The notes beneath the pieces were generated by a model. That model was not told where the DNA came from. It ran no database searches and was given only the letters and a program-made list of their open reading frames with translations. Made by a program: the position numbers and the translations under genes. From assembly GCA_034670405.1 (NCBI GenBank), contig JAXDDX010000072.1, forward strand, positions 806,001-870,000: a stretch of 64,000 nucleotides of DNA. The letters are read 5' to 3'. This document shows positions 3,001 through 57,589 of this stretch, one piece after another. Numbering within the stretch: position 1 is the stretch's first letter; each line of letters opens with the position of its first letter. The DNA is from Hoplostethus atlanticus (lineage: Eukaryota > Chordata > Actinopteri > Trachichthyiformes > Trachichthyidae).

Positions 3001-6000
3001 CTCACTTCTCCAGGCTGGGGGAGCGAGTGAGGAGGTTGGCCGAGGACGCCGCCTTCTTGTCCAGGCGCTTCCTGTTCCTGTCCGGGATGTCCTTCCCCAG
3101 CTTCTCGCTGTTCCTGCGAACCCTGGAAGACCAGCAGACACGGATTCAACTTCGGCTGCAAGCAGTGAACACCCACTGCATGCACACACACACACACACA
3201 CACACTAAATCCCACACATATATCAATGCGTTTAGGCAAGATCTGCATGCATGCGAATACACCCATAACCGCAAAGGTGAATGGATGGGTCTTACGGTAA
3301 ATGTGGGAAAATGTGCACATTTACAATTTTCCACCAACTCTGCGGTAAATGTGCACATTTACCAGCGGGGCAAATAAAATCTGGTAAATATGTACATTTC
3401 CCAGTTAGTGAGAGTGGAAAATGTTAGTCACAGTAGCAAGAGGCTCTCTCACAGTCCCGCCACTACGCTTTGTTTGGGCACCACGTTGCCAAAATGCTGA
3501 GATCTGTAGGGTGCGGGAGATTAATTCATATTTTAGTCTATTTTTAGCCTACACGACTCATTTCCTTCCATGTGTAAAAAGATGTGGATGCCAAAACAGG
3601 CTTGCCTCTAAATTAAATAAAGAATCTAGTGTAACATAAGGCCAATAATCTGTTAATAAGGCTCTACTACAACAGATACTTTTATTATGTAGCCACACAT
3701 TTGTCTTACTATTTCCATGGACTACATTCATTCCCTAATGCCCTGACTCTAACCTAAACCTAATTCCAATCTTAACCCTAAACTAACTTTAACTTTAACC
3801 CTTACCTTAACGTAAACCTACTCCTGATGCTAAACCTCCTTACCCTACACTAACCCCTTAAAGAAGTGAAGACCAGCCAAAATGTCAACCCTCCTATCAT
3901 CAGCCTCTGATGTGGGATGTGAAATTCATCTGCCAACCCCACCCCTCCCTTCTCGTCCTCCCATCCTTCATCTGTTCCAAGTGTACTTCATGATAATGCA
4001 CCTTGTACGTATCAACCACATTAAAGAGAATTTTACCTGATTTTCCATCTTGATAAAGTACTAAATGTTATGGTCTATGGTGCACACTGAGGTACAAGTC
4101 TCCCAGTACCACCGGTTTCCATGGAGGGGCATGAAAGAGCCGAGCTGAGAGACTAAGAGCATATGTTATCAATTGACAGCAGCCCTCTGACAAGCCACAA
4201 CAAGGAAGTAGAAAAGAGAACACAACAAGCACATATGCAAGTAAACAATAGCCACGGCGTTGTGGTATTTTAACAATTACTTCCTAATAGCTGCATGCAG
4301 TGTGGATAAACCCATTTGAGGACACGCAGTTCAAAGAGAACAGATCGCCGCATGACATCTGTGATTCAAAAGAGGAAGAAGATGTTAAAGGGCTGGTCAA
4401 CAGGTTAAAGTAGAATTTGGAAACATTACAGCTTGTGTCTCTGCAAAACCCAGATCCTTGGTGGCGTCGTGTCAACAATGCACATCTGCAGTGTCTCACA
4501 AAACTTAAAATCAGTTTCATTTTTTATGGCTTGTTTCAACAGAGAGGACCACTGTGGAGCTCATGTCGATGGATATTAACTTTCGTGTATGCAGCTTGGA
4601 CAGATCTGCCATTTTTAAACCTTTTTTTATCCTTGAATGCTACATAAAAGAGGCGCTGACATGGCAGCGCGCTCTACACTCATGTAACCCCCCCACCCCA
4701 CCCCCAAGCTTATCCGACCATTCAGTGCTATTGTATACATACTGTACGCGGTGCTGTGTTCAATTGCCCTCACATCACATTTTCCACTGGGCTCAAATCT
4801 GTGTGTGTGTTGCTGATCTTGGATCTGTCACTCAGCGTGGACGAGCGCTGCCGCTATGTTACACTAAGGCCTTATGTTTCCCATCCCACACATCATCCAG
4901 CCCCCTGTTCAAACACATGGAAAAGAACGCACATGGAGGCTGGAGCGAACATGAAGACAGAACATGTCATCCCCCTTGGGTTTCCTGCTGTAACACAGCG
5001 TAATCACAACCTGGCAACCTGAATCGGATTGCGTAATAGGGCTCCACGACTGGGGTTTGCAGTTACACAAGTCAGGATCAGGAAGAAGTTGATTTGTCCT
5101 TAAAAGCCATGCAGTCAGTTGCAAGACAGAAGGCAAGGGTGTTGATGAAGACATGGGTGATGAGTGGGAAGATGGCGGGGTCACGCACAGTGGTTTCTTC
5201 TCTCCTTCCTGGATGGTGGACAGGGGTCCCGGACGGGGACTGGGACTCTGCTCTTTACTGGGGGCCGGGGAGACCGAGGCAGAGCCCCGCTCCTCCGGAG
5301 AGCTGTTGGTGTCCTGGAAGTCCTCCCTCTGGAGGCTTCTAAGGGTGGTGGGCTGGATGGGCTCTTCCACCGATGACGTCCAGCTCAGCTCCTTGTCCTG
5401 CTCGTCTTCTTCCTGCTCCTCATCCTCCTCTTCCAGCCCCGGGACGCGGTGGAGCTTAGCCCGGGAGCCCTCGACCACAGGCTCCCCGTCAAGGAGGGCG
5501 TCCTCGAGCTGCAGGCTCTGGACCGCCCTGGTGAGAGCCAGAGGGACCCTGTCCGGTACGACATCCTGCCCCAGTACAGTGGGCTCTGTCTGGGTTGACC
5601 TGTCCAGTGTTGGGGGTCTGGACCTGGGCTCCAGGGACACTGGGTGCCCTATGTGGCCATTCTCATTGGTCACAAAGCTGTTTGACGCTTGGCTAGAGAT
5701 AGTTAAAGGGTTGAGAACAGGGGAGGGTCATGGAAATCATACAGACATTATATAAACACAACCAGACTAACATGCTACTAACATAACTAATTCACTGACC
5801 CTGTGAGCTTCAAATAATGAGCCAGTAGGTGACAAAGACAATGGGAGATAAAGAATTATGGGTATACATCAACTACAATGAAACAATAACGATAGGCAAG
5901 CCCCTCTACCGCCCTGTCCGTCTAAGCCCTGTCCTTTGGCTTGGTGTGTTGGTCCAGTACCTGGTGGCAGGGTGGCGAAGTCCATCGGGGGCCGAGCTGA

Positions 6001-26221: not shown

Positions 26222-29102
26222 GTAAACTAAACATGTGACCTTGCGTATGGAGGCTAAATAAAACTTCAACTTCACAATCTAAATATATCTTTGCTCTCAG
26301 TGCTGCAAGTGTTACTTTTCCTCTTTCCTGTTGTTCACAGCTACACCATGTAACTAAAAAAAAACCCATTGTCACCCGTAGGTGCTGAGGCGTTTTCATC
26401 GCAGCCTGGGGTGCGCCAAGGGGCAGCCTGTGCCCGCAGGACTTTGCCGAGGAGGGTGGCAGGAAAAAGGACAAGTCGCTGGTCCCCCACGACGACCTCT
26501 TTGAGCGAGTGGCAAAGGAAGCCAAAACCAAGGCCACGTTTAACAGGGCAGTGGACGTCTTCATCAAGAGGGACATAAGACGGCGGGGTCACGTGGAATT
26601 CATTTATGCCGCCCTGAAGAAGATGCCAGAGTTTGGCGTGGAGCAAGACCTCACCGTCTATAACAAACTGCTGGACGTTTTCCCCAAAGAGGTTTTCGTG
26701 CCCAGGAACTTTATCCAGCGCATGTTCAACCACTACCCTCGCCAGCAGGAGTGCGGAGTGCAAATACTGGAGCAGATGGAGAACTACGGTGTGTGTCTTT
26801 TACGGCGTTCCCGTCATTCCCGAATCTGGAGAGGCGTATTCCAGACAGGGAACGTCAGGGAATTTGCTAAGTTCTCAGGGGATATCAGGGAATTTTACAC
26901 ATGGGTCACTAGGCTGCAAGGGCGCTGTATGAATGGGGGGGGGGGGCAAGGTGAACTTTTGTCAGGGGGGCCAAGTTTCCTAGCAGCTCCCCTGCTTGAT
27001 AGGAATCTATTGTCACGTTTCACACATTCATTGCGTTAACTGGTGGTTTGCAATGCAAAAGTCATGGAAAAGTCTTGAAATTTTACATCAGCCACAAAGC
27101 CTCTGAAGTACCATTTACACCATGGGACACTAATACTTTCCACTGAAACCAATGTTGTATTGGTCAGTTGTCCAATAAATAGGTAATCAAACAAACTGCA
27201 GCATATCCATCATATGAGAGGTGGCGAACACTGAATGTCTGACATTCGATTTTCAATAAAATGGCAATATTGGCCCTGCGCTTTGAGCTGAGCGGGGACG
27301 GTCATGCTACGTACAAATAATCGCACATACTTTTACTATTTTCTCTATTCATGTTCACGTGTGCTCGAACCAGGTATAATGCCCAACGTGGAAACGAAGG
27401 TCCTCCTGGTCCAGGTCTTTGGGAAGAAGAGCCACCCCATGAGGAAGTACCAACGCCTCATGTACTGGTTCCCCAAGTTCAAGCACATCAACCCCTTCCC
27501 CGTCCCCCAGCATCTGCCCGAGGACCCGGTGGACCTGGCTCGATTCAGCCTTACCCGCATCGGCGACGACCTGGATGCCAAAGTCACAGTCTACCAGGTA
27601 TAACAAGGCTTTGTGCGCTTGAAAAAGCACGGTATCTCATATATATGGCGGTATATTTAAGCTACACATGCGTCGCCCCCAGTGGTAGCTGTGGTCCGCG
27701 GTGGCCGAGACAGCGCCAACGGTGTGGCACCGGGTGTCGTTCCCGTCATGGCCTTGATGACGACGATGGCGCCCGAGTTGGCAACGGGATCGACAAACTA
27801 AATCCAGATATTCACCAAGCATTCTTACTGTGTTTATTCCGCCTAACCGCATGGGAAGGAGATCCCTCTCTGTGTGGTCCTTCCCAAGGTTCCTTCCATT
27901 TTTCTCTCTAATGAGGTTTTCAGGGGAGGTTTTTTCCTTGTTCTCACTGAGGGTCTGAGGTTGGAGGGTGTCTTTTTCATTTATTGTTTCATAATGTGGC
28001 TTTTTCCTCCTCTTCCTTTCTAGATGCCCTATACAGACATCACAGAAACCGGCGAAGAGATTACACTTCCACATATCGTAGGTATGGAAACAAATTTTTG
28101 CGCTTCACAGGGTTTCCACTGGTCACGGAATTCCTGGACTATCACGCAATATAGTTGATCAATTCTCTTAGGAGGTTAGGAAATTTTACATAGAGTTTCA
28201 TGTTTTGCCATGAAAATGGTCAAATATAAAGACACTAAATATCGGCACAAAATATCGGCCACTTCAGTCTAAACATATCGGTGTCAGCCTTCAAAAGTCC
28301 ATATCAGTCGAACCCTAGTGGAAACCAGACTGTTCACCCCTTTAGAAAAACATTAACAAACCAGGAAAGAAGAACATTTTTAGGTCATGGAAGTACAACT
28401 GACTTTGTTATGGAAAGTCATGGAAAAGTCATGACGGTTTTATATCAGGGCACCAGTAGGAACCCTGTTCTTAATAATTTCCATACACTTTTCAGTAATT
28501 TCCTTTCTGTTCTTCCCCTCCCGCCTCGGTCCCAGGTATCCAAAGCCCCGACCAGATAGAGCTGCTAGCCAAGCATAACCCCAGCAGGCCGGTGTTTGTG
28601 GAGGGACCTTTCCCTCTCTGGCTGAGGAAGACTTGTATCTACTACTACATCCTCAGAGCCGACCCGACGCCTTCCAACGAGCAGGTGGGGGGGAAAAAAA
28701 CTGTATTCAATTTCTGAGCGTTGGTTATGTCTTTTTAAAAGGAAAAAAATCACGTCCAAAACATCAACGGTAAACGTCAGGTTTTGCAGTCAGCCCCTCA
28801 GAATCAAAGAGCAAGGGCTTCTTTCTAGACCGACGATCAACAATCATACACGGAGAAATCCATCGGAGAAGAAGAAGAGACACCAATTTCTCCACCGACA
28901 GCAGCCAAGATAGACCAGAATGCAATGCAGTAGCCAAGATAGACCAGAATGCAATACAGCAATCTGTTTGCATTCTCCATCTACACGTATAACTTTATTT
29001 AGTTTTTTGGATATGCAAAGCTATTTTGTTTATATAAGGATAATATTTTGGGTTATTTTAATTTAAATTCACCTAAAGCAACATAATAAGTTAAAAAGAT
29101 TA

Positions 29103-35841: not shown

Positions 35842-37175
35842 CAGGGCTACTCAACTTTACATAGCTCAAGGGCCACACAGCAAGATACAGCTGTGTCAAA
35901 GGGCCGCAACGCAAATTTTTTGGTCATATAAAGCTATTTTGTAGTGTTATTTCAAGCCACATGGATATCAAATGATTAAATGACAATAAGTAGGCTTTAT
36001 TCATTAAATGTAAAAGTGTTAGATTGCTGTTGCAATAAATCACAAGAATGTTTAATAAAATAAATATAGGCATACTAAATTGAAATCAGGTCTGAGTATA
36101 TCAAATTATTCCCCAGATGGATACGTAATTCCAAGTCAATGTGATAGCTATCATGGTGATGTGAACGTTTGCCCGTTTTGGTCCTGCTATTGTTCTCTGG
36201 CAAAGAAGGCACATTGGTTTGTTATTTACCTCAACAAAAGCGAATTCTTCCTCCCATGTTTTTTGAAATACCCTGTGTTCATCAGAAATGTTACGTTTTG
36301 CCGGTTTTGCCATGACTTGAGAGTAGGCTAGGCTAGACTTCCTGCACAGTTCGGGGCTTTCACATGATCCATGCAAAGCGTCAGGCGTCAACACCAGGTT
36401 GAGCGCGACCCCTTCACGTGGTCAGCGCCAGGAGAATTACATTACATTCATTACTTTCACACTGTCGAGTTTTTAAAATGACAGCATTCAGGAAAGAATA
36501 GAGTGGAGTTCAATTTCGGACTACAGCCCGCATCAGCCGTAGCTAACCACATCTCCAATGATCATACTAGCACAGCCATAGAAGTGAATATAGACTGGCT
36601 ACACATACGAACCTGTACTAAGCTGTCAACCAACCTGGCAGTCTCATCTGTAAACCGACATCATTCCATGCCACAGACTTTTTAGTCAGATCGTGGTATG
36701 ATTTAAGCGTCATGTTGTATAACTCGGGATGCTCCGACACACATAAAACAAGTTTCTCCACCATTGTTTGTTTTTTTATTTCGCGGTTATGATATCAAAC
36801 TGTGCTGTGATTGGTTTGGCGTCGCAGAGATCAGCCTCGCGAATGTCAAAGTTGATTATTGTTGAACTTTGAGCGCAGCGTCAGAGGCTCTGCCAGCGTC
36901 TGTCGAGGGCACGCGAGGGCGCAGCGACGCTTGCCAAATAGGAGATCAATGGCAGTGCCAGCGCCGAGCGTTTTTGTCGCTGATCATGTGTTGTTTTATC
37001 TTCTTTGTTGATCCCACGATTGCTAAATAAGCACAGTATGCACGTTTGCCATCTTGTGGTCATTAAGAATTTAGTTTAGAAATGGTTTGTGTTCATTGAA
37101 ATGAGAATATTATATTTTTATTGGCAGTTGCTATGACAATAACATTTCAACCAAGGGCCGCAAGGCCGCGTGTTG
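35842..37175 (-). mobile_element. hAT-type element with BED-finger relic, copy 2 (uninterrupted)
   Basis: Same ends as copy 1, flanked by GTATAGAG and GTATACAG (7/8), so an independent insertion. Minus-strand 36101-36394 repeats the [20 protein letters not shown] peptide with few changes. A single CATTCATT at 36445-36452 is the empty counterpart of the nested hAT site. Small indels separate the copies (for example about 50 bp around 36,730-36,780 absent from copy 1). Confidence 0.88.
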
Positions 37176-40517: not shown

Positions 40518-40534
40518 CTAGTTCCTGTGTGCCT
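40518..40534 (-). CDS. spindoc: possible spindoc terminal exon
   Basis: A strong acceptor GTTTGTTTTGCAG followed by five codons and TAG in the phase left by exon 5. Only splice signal and phase support it. Confidence 0.35.
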
Positions 40535-43500
40535 CTGCAAAACAAACACTGGGTTGAAGCCGGTTTGTCAACTGGCAGTCAAAAGCAACTGTCCACAAAT
40601 TTTAAGCAAACTTTTCAAATGCTGCAAAGAATAAAATTAGATTTAGGTGCGTTTCCGTCAGTTGGATTGAAGTGAATAAATCAGCTTCCTCATTGTTAAA
40701 TTGTAAATATTGTAAAATATTCTGTAAAATATTTCTGTTGCACATTGCACATTATAATTTGCACAAATATACATGGATGGAAACCGTGAGCATAAACAGT
40801 GAAATTCACATGTGAGAACCCATCTACAACTAGTGCATTCATCAATACATAGGATAAGATGTTACTATCCCTTGTGCCATACTCCATAGAAGCCCAACTC
40901 AGATGTTATAAGAATGATACAAAAACCAGGTGGCACCATTCACTAGCTACCTACTAATACAAAGCCTATTTAGGGTAAGGGGATGGGGGGGTGCGGTTAG
41001 GGTTAACCCCGGTTGGGTACGGTCCCTGGTTCGGGAAAGCGGACAGTGTGTGTGTGTGTGTGTTCATCAGCAACAGTCCCTATGCTTGACTGAAGGGCAC
41101 TTACCTAGCTAGCAGTACAAACCGCCCTCAATGTGTAAATTCAGTCTGTACCTGTATCTGCTGGGCTAACACTACAGCTGGCCCTGCCGGCTGCAAACAG
41201 TTGCCGGGGCAACGCTCAGCTGCCAGGCCAGCCAAGCTGTGTTCCTTATGTACACAACCGTTTAACTAACATACACCACACAAGACCAAACAATTCTCAC
41301 CTTCACTCAATACAACAAAGTACTCCCTGGCTAACGTGCTTTCTTCTGATCCGTAACCACTCACTTGCTCCTTCCGCTGCCTGAGACATGTTTCCAAACT
41401 GCTATTTAAGCTCCACCCACAGATGCCCAACATCATCCTCCAGTCTCCTGCCCACTCCTAGCTGCCCCACATTAAACCTGCACGAATGCTCCCTTATCAT
41501 AACCTTTTCTCCCTTGCGTACAAATCCAATTTCTTTTTTTATCCCTATTGTCAGCTAAATAATTGACTTCTAGACACCCTGACAGTATATGTCTAAGTGT
41601 GCCTACACTGAAACACAACGGGCAGGCAGCATCCTCACCTGTCCACTGGCTAAGACTTTGTTTTGCGTCCACACTCCATAGAAATCTCTCCACCCCGGTT
41701 TTCTCTTTTCTACACTCTCCCAATTCACCCACTGCCCTTGTTTTGCCTGAGAAACTGCCCTAGCACACCTTATTGCCCCTCCCATGCTACACCTGGCCTA
41801 TGATGTCGCTATGTTTAAGTGCTACACTCCTAACCATTGCATCCTATGACTCAGTCAGAGTCATTTCCAATCTAACCATGGCGCACTTGTACTCTGGCAG
41901 GCTAGATAATGGTAATTCTAAGATGCCTTTCCCATACAAAGCCACACTGTTTAAACAGCATGGGGCTCCAAGACATTTTCTAACCAACCTTTCTAGCTTT
42001 TCTACCTTTGATAGGGGAACTTTATACACTGCCAAATGCCACATCAGCTGAGGCAACAATCCAAATTTCAGGCACCACAATTTTAATTTTCATGGAAGAG
42101 GAAAATAGGATAGACTGAATTACGGGGCTGATATTGTCCATTTAATAGAAATAAAAAATCTGGTCCAGTCAGTGTTGTCCACTGATAATGATGGATATGA
42201 TGCAGTTTGATTGATCGATCAGCCAGATGGTGGCGCTATAACAAGCAACTTTATGTTTTGGCCTAGAATCAAAAGATTTTCCCCTCAGATTCCTTGGCTC
42301 AAGACTAAAGTGTAATAGACCACAATTAGTCACAGTAACAGTAACTCTGCAGTCATACCTGCCAGGGCCCCGCCATGCTGCTGGAGCTGGCTAGTGAAGA
42401 AGCGCTCCCGCTGGGATACTTGTTCGTCCCAGGCCTCCAGGATGCACCGGCGCTCCCCGGCATCCAGGTTCAGAGTGTCCGGGTGGGCCTCATCGATGTG
42501 GGCCCTCACCCCCTCCAGGCTGTGGGAGTACTGCAGCTCGCCACACACCATGCACACCAGCAGCTGGTTCAGCGGGTCGTGGTCCATGAGGTAGCGGTTC
42601 CTCCATGCTACATCCGAGACAGGACCCTCCTCACAGTTATTATCATCATAGTCAGCGAACACGACGTCAGATTCATCTGAAAAAGACAGTGGGGGGGGGG
42701 GGGGGGGTTAATAAAGGCCACTGACATGCATAGTAGGGTTTGACCGATATGGGTGTTTGAAGGTCGATACTGATATTTTTAGATTGAGGCTGCCAATATT
42801 TTGTGCCGATATTCAATTTGACCATTTTCATGCCAAAATTTGCCCAAAAAGTTCAAGTAATTTCAGCATTGATTCACCTTCTATTGGTTCTGTAAAACTT
42901 GAGTATGGAAAGTATCCCAGGTCAGCATCTGATGAAGCGCTGTAAAAAAAAAAAATAGGGCAAAGTTACATTCACTTTTATCATATATGGAACTCCAAAG
43001 AGCAGCCAAACAAGTATCCCACCTCATTAGCTGGTCAGATTCCTCAGAGGAGTTTATCCACTGGTCAGAATCCTATAAAGATAAGACAGAGAGGGAGAGA
43101 AATGGGGGAGGGGTGGGAGAAATGAGAGATTGTAATAAACAAACAACTATACTTCACACCGGAGCTGAAAAGTGTCCAGATTGTGTTGTTTTTTTTACCT
43201 CACACGTGGAGACAGATGTGATGTTTTCTAATTAGTGTGAACAGCAAAAAGCTGCATGGAGTTGCGTTTTTTTCAGTTCCCATCTAGACCACATGGATAT
43301 GTGGTAAAAGATCCTGAGGCATGTGACCTACATGCAACTTGTATTTGACTGCTCAGATTGTAATCTGTCAGATAATGTAAAGAACCAAGCAGAAAAAAGA
43401 AGCGTTGGTACAAAAACGCCTCTTGTTATTGTTTTGTTATCGTCTGCCTACGCGTGTCTTTTTGACATGGCTGTCAGTTCATATTGGTATCAGATGGGTT

Positions 43501-46500
43501 ACATCCTAGAACGGATCCAAAACAGAACAGTCCTCCCAAAAAAATCAATAAGCAGCAATTCAGAATTGAGCAGGAAGACCTGCAGTGTGAACCTAAGAGT
43601 TGCTCATAGCTGTATTCTAAATGATGCACACTCATCAACTCACCCATCATTCACTATGAAACAGAGCCCTTACCTGTGTCTCCAGGCCCTGGGCAGGCAG
43701 GATGGGCCTCCAGTTGTTGGAGGTTCTCCTTTGGGTGAGCTCCCTGTCCCTAATGGCCTTCCTGGCTCTCTGTTCCTTCTTTTTTACCCTCCAGTACTCC
43801 CTCTTCCTCTTCAGAAACTCCTCTTCAGACTCCCCTGGGACTGGCTTTGGAGGAACCATGGTGCTTATTGGCGCCAGTTTGGCGGGAACTGTGTGCACCG
43901 GGCTCCGATGCTGAGCGCAGGGGATTTTTATGGGACTGAGGGTGGATGTGCAATTGGGACTTTGACCGAGGGGTTCGATAGGTTGCAGGTTGATGCTGGA
44001 CAGTGGGTTGTCTGGGGGCTTCAAAGTCGGGAGGGATGGGGCTGAGTCTGCATCTGTGCTTTCTGGCACTTCGAGCATCCACTTTCGAACTCTTGGCTCA
44101 TCGGAGCTTGAACCTGGCCTTGCTTGTTGCCGATTCTTGACCAATAGCCGCGTGCCATCCATCCTGTTATGCAACAGTGGGGCGACAGCATCGGCTCCTT
44201 CAGGGACAGACGTAGTACTGAAAATATGAGACGATTGTGAGGGCCCGACGTGCATTTCATTCAGTTCCCTGCTGGGCGAACAGGAGACACTGCTGATGGG
44301 CGGTTTGACCAGGAGTGTGTCAGCTGACTCTCCGGCATTAGACGTAGTAGAGCTGACAACCAGGACAGTGGGGATGCTGGTCACTGCCGTAAGAGTAGCA
44401 GTGGAAGGCTTGGGCTGGAGGGCTGGTTTTGTTGGTGGACTCAGAGCCTGCTTGACAGTGTTGATTATAACCAGAGTTGGAGCCTGAAAGATGACAATAC
44501 AGGATGAACAAATTAGTTACTCCAGTCACTCCACCAGGAAACACAATGGAAGCCAGAGATTACTGCATAACCAATGCATCTTTCCAAAACATACACCTGT
44601 GTGTTTGTCTCAAGTTTTAACGGGGCCCCTCTAAGTCACCCTCACCTCTATTTTTGCTGCTTAGGTGTCAAATGCCAGAGAGTAGTTTGTGGTGTAATGA
44701 TTGGGGTTTCAGCTGGACTGGACATTGGCCCTGCCTACAAGCTCAGTCGGGAACTCTTTGTACTTACTAGCAAGCTAACATTGATTTCCAAATGGAGTCT
44801 GCAGGCTACATGCTGCTATCTGACCAAGACATGAAAACTGTACTTTGGCACAGGGGTTTTATTTGATAGGTCACCGTGGAGAGAGACAGGAAAGACTTAG
44901 TGAAAGAGAGAGGGAGGGAGAAAGAGAGAGGTGGTGGGGGGTGAGTGACATGTGATGAAGGTCCCAGGTCAAATTAAAATCCAGGATGTCACAGATGCAT
45001 GTTATGCACCTTAGCCAACTAAGACACCAGAACACCCATGGTAAATGCTTTTAGTTGATTAATTACCCAAAGGCATGCACAGCCAAGTACTTGCACAGGT
45101 GCCGAAAGAGACGATGAAAAATTAAAAATCGAGTCTGCACATACATTTAAAAATAATTTTTCTAATTATTTTAGCTTACCAGCCCTCAGCAGCCGAGCCA
45201 AAAAGTTAATTTTGGACACTGACCCGAGTATATTCACTCACCTGGGTGTATTCTCCCTGTCTTTCTTTCTGCCTGGCCTTTGACCTGGCCCTCTGCTGCC
45301 TCTTCATCAGCTTCCAGTACTCCCTCTTCTTCTGCAGATTGCTCACACTGCTCTGCTCTGCCACGACATGCTGCTGTTGCGGTTGTGTTAATGGCGAGTT
45401 GACCTTTTGACACTGCTGTTGTGGCTGACACTGTTGCTGCTGTGGATGCTGTTGATCCAAGGGTAGGTGATGCAGCTTTGGTGGCTCTGGGGAGCAGCAG
45501 TGTTGATGGCCCATTTTTTTGGCGCGAAGCCTCTGGGCCCTACGAGGGGAAGACACTGTTGGGTCATCTGACGCGTCCAAGGAGGTGCGCAAGTATGAAG
45601 GCGGTTGAGATGAATGTTCAGTGGGGTGTAGGACAGCCTCGTCGTCGTTGTCGGAGGAGGAGGAGGGCAGAAGTGGGAGTGTGTCACTAATCTGGGGTGA
45701 GTTCTGAGGGCTTGGTGAACAAGCTGGTACCAAGGTATCAGCATCTGCCTGCCAGCTTTTAATCTGCAATGTAAGATCAGCAGCTATGGGCACCTCCTCT
45801 TCGTCTCCAATGGAGAGGTGTGGTACATCTGGCTTCGTCTGCTGCTCTGAGGCCCCCTCTGATATGCAAGCCTCCACTTCGGTTTTACAGGAAAGATGCT
45901 CCGCTTTTGCATCGGTGTGTTCACTTTTACACTCAGTCACCGTGTTGAGCGATTCCTCCAGGAGTTTTTTCATGGAGGCCACAGCTAGGAGAGTGGTAGC
46001 TTGGCTGTCTGCACTCAGAGCTGGGTCAGGCTCTGGCTGAGGCGCTGGAGGTGGTGGTGGAGAGGGGGGGGGTTTGATATCTGGACAGATGGCTTGTTCT
46101 GATTGAGAATTTAGGTCAACTGCTGGTGTAGGCGCTCTCTCTTGTTTTGTCTCATTTGCCTGTGGTGTAATAGGCACACTGCTGGTGTGAAGAGGTTGGG
46201 TATTCCCTGTATGGTTAATAACATTTCTGCATGGTATAATATTGGCTGCTGCTACTTGTTGAAGAGGTGGAAACTTTTGGATCTTCCTCCTTTGTAAGTT
46301 TGCACTGGCCCTAGCTTGTAACACACCCTGCCTTAGTCTAGCAGCACGAGCTGCTCGCTGCTCTCGTTTCTTAACCCTCCAGTACTCCCTCTTCTTCGCC
46401 ATCCTCTCCTCCTCGGTCAACTCTGGATCCAGAGAGGGTCCTGCTAGTGACGGTGCGCTACTTGAGACAGCCATTTTCATGACACAACCACCGAGGTTCA

Positions 46501-48757
46501 GCCCTGCTGTCGCTGCTCCAGAAACAGCATTTTGAAGGGTTTGAGGGTGAGTGAGTGTCAACTGACCTGGGGTTTGAACGGATAACGTGTGTGAATTAGT
46601 CACCGTTGTAGCTGTGCTATCAAGTTGAGTTTTTGGTCTGATTGACAGTAACCTTGGAGGCTTGTTTACTGACTGCCCAGCAAGTGGAAAGGAGACTTTC
46701 ACCTGAGTTGGGCGGAGTGGAGGGGGAGGCCGGTTTACCTGAATAGGGTCTCCTAACACCTCACTTTTAGCGGCATTACTTCCAAGTTTGGTGTGAGGTT
46801 GATGTTGAGGGCGTGTAACGATGTTGTTATTAGAAAGTCGATTAACTTCCTCGTCACTTTTGTTTTCTGCCGTCTTGCGGCCCGGGGGACCTTGGGGAAT
46901 GTTGATGGTCACCGTCCCGTCCTCTTTGATGAACCCTCCGATGGTCTCAGAGGCATGGGTTAGGGCGCTTCCTGTTGGCTGGGTTAGGGTGTTGCAGGCC
47001 TCCGCTCTGGCCCTTCTCATCTCCTCCAGTATGTTCTGGTAACGTTTAACTCTTCGCATCAGAGAGTCCTTCTCCTTCAATCTAGCCTTCACCTCTACGG
47101 ACAGCTTGGCTCGCTGCTCGCGCTTTTTGATGCGCCAGTACTCTCGCCTCCTGGTCGCTGTCTGCTCAAGTGTCTCACGGGGGTCAGTTTTGGGGGCATT
47201 TCTGGTACTGAAGACTGAAGCATGAGATGGGGATTTCCCCCTTGCGTGTCTTTGACTCAGGAAACTCTTCTGGGCTTCAATGAACCTCTGTCTCTGCGTT
47301 CTACACCGGGGAATCCCTCGGCCAGCATTCGAGAAATACACATAACTGGGAAGCCTTCTCATTAGTACTCCTGGCTTTTTCTCAACAATAAGATCAGGCG
47401 TGATACCTGTCTGCGTTGACTTATTCCCCTGTGGATCTTCTACTTTTATCTGGACTGCTTGCTGGTTCTGGTTAAGGTCAACTGTGGTTAGCTTAGCTGC
47501 ACCTGACTGTAAATTAGCATTCTCCTTTTTGACATCTATGCTAGTGTGTTTGTTCATGGTATATGACGTTACCATGACTCGGGCGTTCTTTAGCAAACGT
47601 CCTGCAGATGTAAATGGGGTCTTGACCCTAGGATAACACGGTCTCTGGCCTGCTCCTCTCAAATATGATGGAGATGGAAGATGCTCATTGCCCGACTGTC
47701 CCGTTCTTTGCAATGTTTTCCTCTGCAGTGTCACTTCGGTGCTCTGTGTCCTCTCTGTGCCTTTAGCTAATCGAGCTGCCAGCTTTGCTCTCTGCTCGCG
47801 CTTCTTAATCCGCCATTGCTCTCTGCGCTTGGCTGCTCTTTCCTCCTCAGACTCCACGATAGCCTGCGCATTACCAATAGCTTTAGCCCTCTGGGTGGTG
47901 ACCAAGGCACTCTTTTTTCCAATTTGAGGTGTTGTGTTTGCTGCTCTGTCCTCTACTTTGATAGGAACAGGGGCAGACAGAGAAGACACAAGCATCATGC
48001 CTGTGTTAACATTGGCGGTCAATGGTTTGGACTGAATGCATACTGGAACTTGTGCCTTACGTTGTGCTTTGGGCACTGATGCACCCTGCATAGACACACA
48101 TGGCTGAGGTGTTGCTTTAGCGGAGCTGCCATTGGTAATGGTCATTCTGCCCTGTGGCTGGTGAGGTGAAGTCCCAGAGGGTTGCACCGTCACTCTGATC
48201 AGAGGCACTGAGGAACTGGTGTTGAACAGGGTTCCACTGGGTTTGGATGAGGTAACAGATCTGTTCACAGTGCCCCCTGTTGATAGGCATTTCACTGTGG
48301 CTTTACTGACCACAGCAGCTTTGGCTGAGATGGAACTTGATGCTGGGAACTGAGGCAAGACTTTATTGAGTTTTATCGTCTGGAGCCACTTCTCCTTTTG
48401 CCTTGGACTGGCTTCACCAGAACTCCCACCCACTCCATTTCCACTCAGTGATGCAGGAGACGTATTGGCTGTTTTGTATGACTCATCATTATTCTGCAGT
48501 GGGGAGGAGGAAGCAGCCAGTGAGCTTGATGAACTGGAATTCAACACTGCAGAGGTATTCATATATTGTGTTTTTCCACCTCGACTGTCTTGTTTTGGCC
48601 TTCCCCTCCTCTCTGACAGCCGGGCCCTCTGCTCTCGTTTCTTGGTTCTCCAGTATTCTCTCTTTTGGGCAAGGGTGGCATCGTCATATTCTGAGGCAGG
48701 CCGGTAGCGCTGGGACATCGACCCACCAGTCTCTCCTTTACCTTTCATGGTTGGCAT
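40518..48757 (-). CDS. spindoc: spindoc-like gene with six YWRxKKREQRA motifs and a C-terminal zinc module
   Basis: Mammalian SPINDOC binds the histone reader Spindlin1 and weakens its chromatin binding. Exons 48757-45242, 44483-43674, 43072-43023, 42939-42878, 42676-42359 and probably 40534-40518 join in phase to 4773 nt, 1590 residues. The zinc exon (CMVCGELQYSHSLEGVRAHI then DEAHPDTLNLDAGERRCILE) matches SPINDOC CMVCG...ARSHILEQHPHTLDL...NILEAW. Upstream are six copies of a K-[KR]-E-Y-W-[RK]-x2-K-[KR]-E-Q-R-A motif, Ser/Thr/Pro-rich spacers, several IKVE/IKED sumoylation-type sites, Pro- and Gln-rich tracts. Mammalian SPINDOC is far shorter (about 380 residues) and, as I recall it, lacks the motifs. 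Order and orientation next to zfta and rtn3 support the name. Alternative: a fish-only relative. Start ATG 48757 is the first in frame after a stop; an upstream exon is possible. Confidence 0.7.
41462..42090 (-). mobile_element. LINE pol fragment in spindoc intron 5
   Basis: Two minus-strand pieces resemble the C-terminal half of a fish LINE pol: LPQLMWHLAVYKVPLSKVEK with GKGILELPLSSLPEYKCAMV (42080-41844) and DAACPLCFSVGTLRHILSGC (41640-41575), a zinc-knuckle-like CPLC. Frames are broken between them. Confidence 0.7.
42105..42215 (+). mobile_element. MITE family A fragment
   Basis: GGGGCTGATATTGTCCATTT, CAGTCAGTGTTGTCCACTGA and GATATGATGCAGTTTGATTG. Confidence 0.6.
42359..42676 (-). CDS. 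spindoc: spindoc exon 5, zinc module
   Basis: Acceptor CTTTTTCAG, donor GTATGA, phase 1 at both ends. Encodes VAWRNRYLMDHDPLNQLLVC then MVCG, with C-x2-C-x14-H-x4-H ligands and an HPDTLNL...CILEAW tail. If the donor is skipped the frame ends after MTAELLLL. Confidence 0.9.
42691..42707. repeat. G17 homopolymer
   Basis: Sits 14 bp outside the acceptor of the zinc exon; on the minus strand it is a C-run within the polypyrimidine tract. Confidence 0.95.
42733..42865 (-). mobile_element. MITE family A end fragment
   Basis: TAGGGTTTGACCGATATGGG followed by TTTGTGCCGATATTCAATTT, one terminus in reverse orientation. Confidence 0.65.
42878..42939 (-). CDS. spindoc: spindoc exon 4 (62 bp)
   Basis: Acceptor TTTTTTTACAG, donor GTGAAT. 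Encodes ASSDADLGYFPYSSFTEPIE; phases fit both neighbours. Confidence 0.7.
43023..43072 (-). CDS. spindoc: spindoc exon 3 (50 bp)
   Basis: Acceptor TTATCTTTATAG, donor GTGGGA. Encodes DSDQWINSSEESDQLM, an acidic segment. Confidence 0.7.
43275..43602 (+). mobile_element. MITE family C copy
   Basis: Collinear with 9856-10232; ends AGCAGCAATTCAGAATTGAG then CTGCAGTGTGAAC. In spindoc intron 2. Confidence 0.6.
43674..44483 (-). CDS. spindoc: spindoc exon 2, motif 6
   Basis: Acceptor CATCTTTCAG, donor GTAAGG, phase 0 in and out. Ser/Thr/Pro-rich, then KRKREYWRVKKKEQRARKAI near 43815-43755 and NNWRPILPAQGLETQ. Confidence 0.88.
44893..45045 (-). mobile_element. tRNA-derived SINE, reverse
   Basis: Minus strand reads TAGTTGGCTAAGGTGC (box A) and GACCTGGGACCTTCATCACA, then a C/T-rich tail; same family as 13990. 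In spindoc intron 1. Confidence 0.65.
45242..48757 (-). CDS. spindoc: spindoc giant exon, motifs 1-5
   Basis: 1172 codons open in one exon, donor GTGAGT. Motifs: QKREYWRTKKREQRARLSER (about 48670-48610), KRREQWRIKKREQRAKLAAR (47830-47770), RRREYWRIKKREQRAKLSVE (47155-47095), KKREYWRVKKREQRAARAAR (46400-46340) and KKREYWKLMKRQQRARSKAR (45335-45275). Motif 3 runs into a charged heptad stretch (LMRRVKRYQNILEEMRRA). The last 150 codons are Gln-rich. An in-frame TTG continues 14 codons up to 48799. Confidence 0.9.

Positions 48758-51814: not shown

Positions 51815-57589
<5,775 letters not shown>

Follow-up and report, generated by a model that had tools for sequence, protein, structure and literature searches.

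The locus and its predicted gene

The stretch of DNA analysed here (64,000 nucleotides from the fish Hoplostethus atlanticus, hereafter the window) harbours, on its minus strand, a predicted gene of six exons (A to F) whose product carries six copies of a short basic motif. The exons can be read in one frame of 1590 codons followed by TAG, with AG/GT borders and matching phases; splicing is thus predicted from sequence signals and frame, and exons A to E alone give 1585 codons with 0 stops. This is in line with the preliminary description of the DNA, which had assigned the motif-bearing exons to one protein. Exon A (45242..48757, 3516 nt or 1172 codons) is open throughout, carries copies 1 to 5 and ends at the donor CAG/GTGAGTGA in phase 0; the ATG at 48757, the first past an in-frame stop, is the putative start codon. 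Exon B (43674..44483, 270 codons) carries copy 6 between the acceptor TTTCAG/GCT and the donor CAG/GTAAGG, both ends being in phase 0. It is followed by exon C (43023..43072; acidic and serine-rich, DSDQWINSSEESDQLM), which has AG/GT borders and ends in phase 2, and by exon D (42878..42939), similarly bordered, which starts in phase 2 and ends in phase 1. Exon E (42359..42676) encodes a zinc finger at 42423-42608, and five further residues bring the predicted protein to its end: these (EAHRN and the stop) come from the start of a putative terminal exon F (40518..40534), in frame behind the acceptor GTTTTGCAG/AGGCAC.

The finger in exon E matches the Spin-doc zinc finger family of Pfam (PF18658; E 2.1e-24, 85.4 bits against a curated cut-off of 27.3), so that the predicted protein closes with this domain. 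In all five Spin-doc fingers of the window the C, C, H and H columns are invariant, and these positions are the presumed ligands of a Cys2His2 finger; no solved relative of the finger was found in the PDB at E 0.001 or better (best values 0.018 and 0.0081). The spacers of the protein are rich in Ser (11.9 per cent), Pro (10.5), Thr (8.7) and Gln (7.6). They are probably largely disordered between the motifs, and the protein itself is probably nuclear.

The other four Spin-doc fingers lie on the plus strand in four open frames (53240-53428, 54526-54717, 56505-56693 and 57302-57490), which are taken as one ZFTA-like gene (53240..57490) divergent from the motif gene. ZFTA (C11orf95) has four zinc fingers (PMC8362233) of the family that is also present in the motif gene, whereas the latter has one finger and the ZFTA-like neighbour is devoid of the KREYWR motif. 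Across the genome, with 150 of 185 candidates scored, at least 63 PF18658 matches were obtained; the five best of those listed all lie in the window, at 84.8-102.7 bits, and the next-best among the matches listed reaches 49.6 bits. Approximately 2.5 kb past the window, a reticulon gene is found on the minus strand (C72:872507-874162). The human order, RTN3-ZFTA-SPINDOC, has the same relative orientations as the fish reticulon, ZFTA-like and motif genes. Since the motif gene stands beside the ZFTA-like and reticulon genes, divergent from the former, in agreement with this layout, it probably corresponds in position to SPINDOC.

The proteins themselves are less alike. Human SPINDOC carries a Spin-doc finger, in keeping with the Pfam name, close to the N-terminus of a protein shorter than 400 residues; the fish protein also has one such finger, but at the C-terminus, past about 1500 residues with six motifs. 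The Spindlin-docking element of the human protein (C11orf84/SPINDOC) has been assigned to T255-Q283, a stem-loop in which F274-L278 forms a beta strand with Tudor 3 (PMC7878818), and to residues 251-293 (PMC8568969); a structure of the docking segment is available (PDB 7cna_B). In SPINDOC this segment is C-terminal to the finger, whereas the predicted fish protein extends only 5 residues beyond exon E. In tblastn searches, the best match of this segment in the window (18.1 bits, E 0.44) fell on the opposite strand and beyond the gene, the best match inside the gene on its own strand had E 63, and the fish genome gave 0 matches in a search run without a positive control; divergence of the fish sequence or other 3' exons could hide such a segment. 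With the finger C-terminal and the docking segment not found, the gene is referred to as the SPINDOC-position gene and not as SPINDOC.

Two further coding regions were noted in the window. An ECSIT gene lies at 26389-27600 on the plus strand, where PF06239 (ECSIT_N) matches two open frames (1.8e-51 and 6.5e-38). An acidic open frame of 272 codons at 4912-5727 on the minus strand, with no Pfam match, is perhaps an exon of another gene.

Sequence and conservation of the motif

The six copies follow the pattern [KR][KR]RE(Y/Q)W[RK]xxK[RK]xQRA, except that copy 1 starts with QK. Their cores are located, all on the minus strand, at 48623..48667 (copy 1, QKREYWRTKKREQRA), 47786..47830 (copy 2, KRREQWRIKKREQRA), 47108..47152 (copy 3, RRREYWRIKKREQRA), 46352..46396 (copy 4, KKREYWRVKKREQRA), 45287..45331 (copy 5, KKREYWKLMKRQQRA, the lowest-scoring copy) and 43764..43808 (copy 6, RKREYWRVKKKEQRA). 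The R of RE.W occupies residues 33, 312, 538, 790, 1145 and 1400 of the predicted protein, so that the copies are spaced 279, 226, 252, 355 and 255 residues apart. Of the 38 columns of the six-copy alignment, seven hold one residue throughout (R, E, W, K, Q, R and A); the W is kept in 6/6 copies and the Y in 5/6, while E and Q hold fixed places in the basic run. The six copies reported in the preliminary description, five in the 1172-codon exon and the sixth in the next, were all recovered at their places. Its further statement that a YW pair stands beside eight to ten basic residues needs small corrections: copy 2 has QW, and the 15-residue core of copy 4 contains 8 basic residues.

With a profile built from the six copies, the copies score 48-55, while the best of 1000 whole-protein shuffles reaches 19.2 and the best place in the protein that does not overlap a copy reaches 7.4. 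A profile HMM run on the six-frame translation of the window gave the six copies i-Evalues of 3.4e-16 or lower, the next sequence having E 2.3. The scores of the copies are inflated in both cases because the copies themselves define the profile. No seventh copy was found in the protein or in the window by these profile searches.

Good copies of the motif came up in this gene alone. A protein search over the 633 Mb assembly of the fish, with copy 4 as query, recovered the six copies and nothing else (6 candidates, all 6 scored, E up to 10), and REYWRxKK, searched as a DNA pattern, occurred at 4 places in the 633 Mb, all in this gene (1 for the reversed-pattern control). A looser pattern around W[RK]xxK[RK]xQRA, whose codon letters admit some other residues too, gave 25 places (control 4): 6 in this gene, 2 in a mobile-type family and 17 elsewhere, the latter without upstream resemblance as judged by eye. 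A diverged relative could escape both kinds of search. The preliminary description had been unable to place the motif in any named domain, and none was found in Pfam, NCBIfam or the sequences of the PDB: the best Pfam hit was DUF4110 (E 0.019, below cut-off, copy 6 only), and the motif profile matched no PDB chain (best E in one PDB search 0.3). Pattern searches gave 84 stretches in viral contigs and 66 in prokaryote genomes with 0 confirmed relatives in either, as is expected of a fish protein. In the literature searched, no occurrence of any of the six motif strings and no report on this fish gene were found.

Comparison of the copies with one another reveals strong conservation at the protein level. 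Over the 15-codon core, the 15 copy pairs pooled give pS 0.81 and pN 0.16 (ratio 0.20), and over a 28-codon span 0.77 of synonymous and 0.35 of non-synonymous sites differ; these figures compare copies inside one gene over few codons and are distinct from dN/dS across fishes. Amino-acid identity of the core is 75% (73/84/56% at the three codon positions), dropping to 0.26 and 0.23 over the eight-codon flanks on its two sides. In adjacent 35-codon spacer stretches it is 7-9%, with 25-28% identity at each codon position, which is near background. The copies accordingly have the look of ancient duplicates, with silent sites near saturation, that have been held by selection on the protein, since the protein core is conserved while silent sites differ and the spacers are near background. 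The motif is a genuine, selected and unnamed repeated element.

The proposal that short selected elements are set in divergent Ser/Pro/Thr-rich spacers is therefore borne out, core and spacers differing as widely as 75% and 7-9%. Against the statement that the spacers are unrelated, two pairs match weakly when composition correction is off, those after copies 1 and 2 (E 8e-4) and those after copies 4 and 5 (E 3e-5). The former match includes a shared IKVED and the latter is proline-rich, so that parts of the spacers may share an origin or merely a composition.

The shared IKVED resembles the SUMO consensus psi-K-x-E and occurs on the minus strand between copies 1 and 2 (47948..47962) and again between copies 2 and 3 (47435..47449). 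Enrichment of SUMO sites was considered and rejected (3 psi-K-x-E sites against 1.2 expected, p 0.11). Directly past copy 1, a single AT-hook-like core RGRP is found within ERRGRPKQ (48596..48607, minus strand); the AT-hook consensus is an RGRP core with basic flanks, and the fish stretch gave no Pfam match.

Predicted structure and possible functions

Two of the copies, 3 and 4, were folded with AlphaFold2. For copy 4 (alignment consisting of the other five copies), one helix is predicted from the TEEE stretch onwards, at residues 17-63 of 65, with a mean pLDDT of 82.7 and block means of 93 and 96 over the motif. Copy 3, in a longer fragment of 97 aa, is continuous with a longer predicted helix of 62 residues (17-78; block means 96-98 over residues 21-70). 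Basic stretches rich in Lys, Arg, Glu and Ala are readily predicted as helices; given this composition and the six-row alignments from one protein, the prediction carries less weight than its pLDDT. The net charge per 24 residues is +6 to +9 in all six copies. An amphipathic helix was not supported, as the hydrophobic moment of the helix did not exceed that of shuffled sequences in 6/6 copies (p 0.38-0.90). The helices hence have no clear hydrophobic face, for which reason a polyanion partner fits better than a classical amphipathic protein interface.

With its charge and predicted helix, the motif may be regarded as a basic, helix-like element compatible with contact to DNA, RNA or nucleosomes, as had been suggested initially. 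The reading that we favour, tentatively and at slightly under an even chance, is that of a long, probably disordered nuclear protein in which dispersed basic helices, together with the finger, make multivalent contact with DNA or nucleosomes; both the nucleic-acid or nucleosome binding and the multivalency are inferred. Each motif would be a short, strongly basic alpha-helical contact element, six per protein, whose helix would arise or be stabilised once it contacts DNA, or DNA together with the acidic surface of nucleosomes. The protein would clamp chromatin at several points, each of modest affinity, and the C-terminal zinc finger would add a choice of target or a partner. Regarding the last step, fusions of ZFTA to RELA, which are known from ependymoma, differ in the chromatin sites they bind when they carry one or two ZFTA fingers (PMC8362233).

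The closest parallel to such an element is the STPR of FMBP-1 and ZNF821. In FMBP-1, the STPR consists of short repeats that are flexible alone and become helix-rich on DNA; together with a hyper-basic region it serves as a nuclear-localisation signal (PMC4821344). The likeness, one of description, lies in short repeated elements, a helix and a nuclear protein; Glu-Arg salt bridges are called important for the STPR in the same source. The STPR, however, has four contiguous repeats of 23 residues, whereas the fish copies are 226-355 residues apart with an invariant W, and no tandem repeat array was found in the motif gene. As its repeats are not contiguous, the motif is not an STPR, though by analogy it may work like one. 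A second parallel, with bZIP proteins, is limited to copy 3, in which a basic stretch runs into the predicted helix and hydrophobic residues recur there at heptad-like intervals (judged by eye). A zipper-like stretch was not noticed past the other five copies, and no bZIP family of Pfam matched the protein. Furthermore, as no relative was found among solved structures, homology lends no support to DNA contact.

An objection to DNA contact comes from the aromatic residues: the invariant Trp and nearly invariant Tyr exceed the needs of a simple polyanion-binding helix and could point to a protein pocket. The main rival proposes that a single protein partner (a reader, an importin or a corepressor) docks on the six copies as peptides, with W and Y filling a pocket and the basic residues doubling as a nuclear-localisation signal. 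Dispersed copies in divergent spacers, as seen here, are typical of linear docking motifs. The fixed W (6/6), Y (5/6), E and Q agree with such a role, as does the import function of the STPR and hyper-basic region of FMBP-1 (PMC4821344). Nevertheless, a hydrophobic face above the level of shuffles is missing, six long copies are more than nuclear import would be expected to require and no PDB chain matches the profile; we consider protein docking less likely, though it is the first alternative to be borne in mind. RNA binding ranks third. Six Arg/Lys helices might bind RNA and, with the low-complexity spacers, bring about phase separation, which would suit multivalent basic elements amid spacers rich in Ser, Pro, Thr and Gln; but nothing specific to RNA was seen, Pfam revealed no RNA-binding domain, and the sole folded domain, a zinc finger, belongs to a chromatin family, making a condensate protein of this kind improbable.

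Docking to a reader such as Spindlin had also been raised in the preliminary description, and the surroundings of the gene invite the idea: the gene order suggests the SPINDOC position, and spindlin genes are present in the fish genome (13 Spin-Ssty matches on 4 contigs). SPINDOC has Spindlin, a histone reader, and PARP1 as partners (PMC8568969). The motif would then correspond, in the fish, to the segment with which SPINDOC binds Tudor 3 of Spindlin. Its predicted helix, however, bears no resemblance to the stem-loop and beta strand of the human segment, and the searches described above did not recover that segment in the gene (E 63 at best) or in the genome. With the finger moreover at the C-terminus, the idea that the motif docks to Spindlin lacks support and we regard it as highly unlikely.

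SPINDOC and ZFTA have been studied in mammals. If the fish SPINDOC-position gene encodes six basic helices without Spindlin docking, either mammalian SPINDOC or the fish gene has been reduced and re-purposed, and the job shared by the two may be chromatin contact. Besides, the short motif can be tested as a peptide, and six near-identical elements provide a natural series for multivalent binding.

A possible origin in mobile elements

Apart from its function, an origin may be considered for the motif. It might be a domesticated helix of mobile elements, derived from a basic W-R helix that fish proteins of transposon type, present in many copies, contain, and amplified within the gene; this is a claim about origin and is compatible with the functional readings. 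The degenerate pattern led to two loci of the W-R element, the family of which comprises 23 genome places (L044-L066). These proteins, present in multiple copies, carry a basic domain at the N-terminus (for example RRYRARRDADPERRQQYLNKE..SEREKRAERKKWRE), and some members lie in open frames of 390-590 residues. The long frames look like transposases; two of them, L064 and L048, matched no Pfam family above cut-off.

The W-R helix resembles the motif in being a Lys/Arg-rich stretch with W[RK], and reads WRINKRNQRA in the C42 and C276 loci; it differs in occurring as a single copy per protein, beside a second basic segment, and in being one residue shorter ahead of W. When the profiles were compared without the bait, the second half of the domain aligned W on W with a score of 16.0, which was reached by 0/100 target column shuffles and 2/100 motif shuffles. 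Its hhalign probability, however, is 11.8%; with the bait included, the comparison gave 18%, and 1.8% in global mode. For the domain as a whole, again without the bait, the probability is 2.7% (2 and 6 of 100 shuffles reached its level), and for the first half, serving as control, 2.0% (13 and 11 of 100). The one-residue shift ahead of W (by eye) and the choice of the first family member for its fit to the pattern also weigh against the derivation. The likeness is weak and suggestive, and a mobile origin is kept as a possibility and not as a result, one that we hold to be doubtful.

A broader scenario can be built on it, which we likewise offer as speculation with a low probability. KREYWRxKKREQRA would be an undescribed chromatin-contact helix, perhaps taken from a DNA-binding helix of a mobile element and multiplied to six in the fish SPINDOC-position gene as a multivalent clamp, while the mammalian gene lost it and gained Spindlin docking. 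If so, two lineages would reach chromatin differently from one locus.

Other traces of mobile sequences were observed within and outside the window. An open frame at 36107-36421 on the minus strand has no Pfam match and reads like the zinc-finger stretch of a relative of hAT-type transposases. Among the matches listed, weaker Spin-doc fingers (28-50 bits) occur at 58 genome places outside the window; several of them are part of long open frames, and several share the same score although they lie on different contigs. The Spin-doc finger may thus also be carried by mobile elements.
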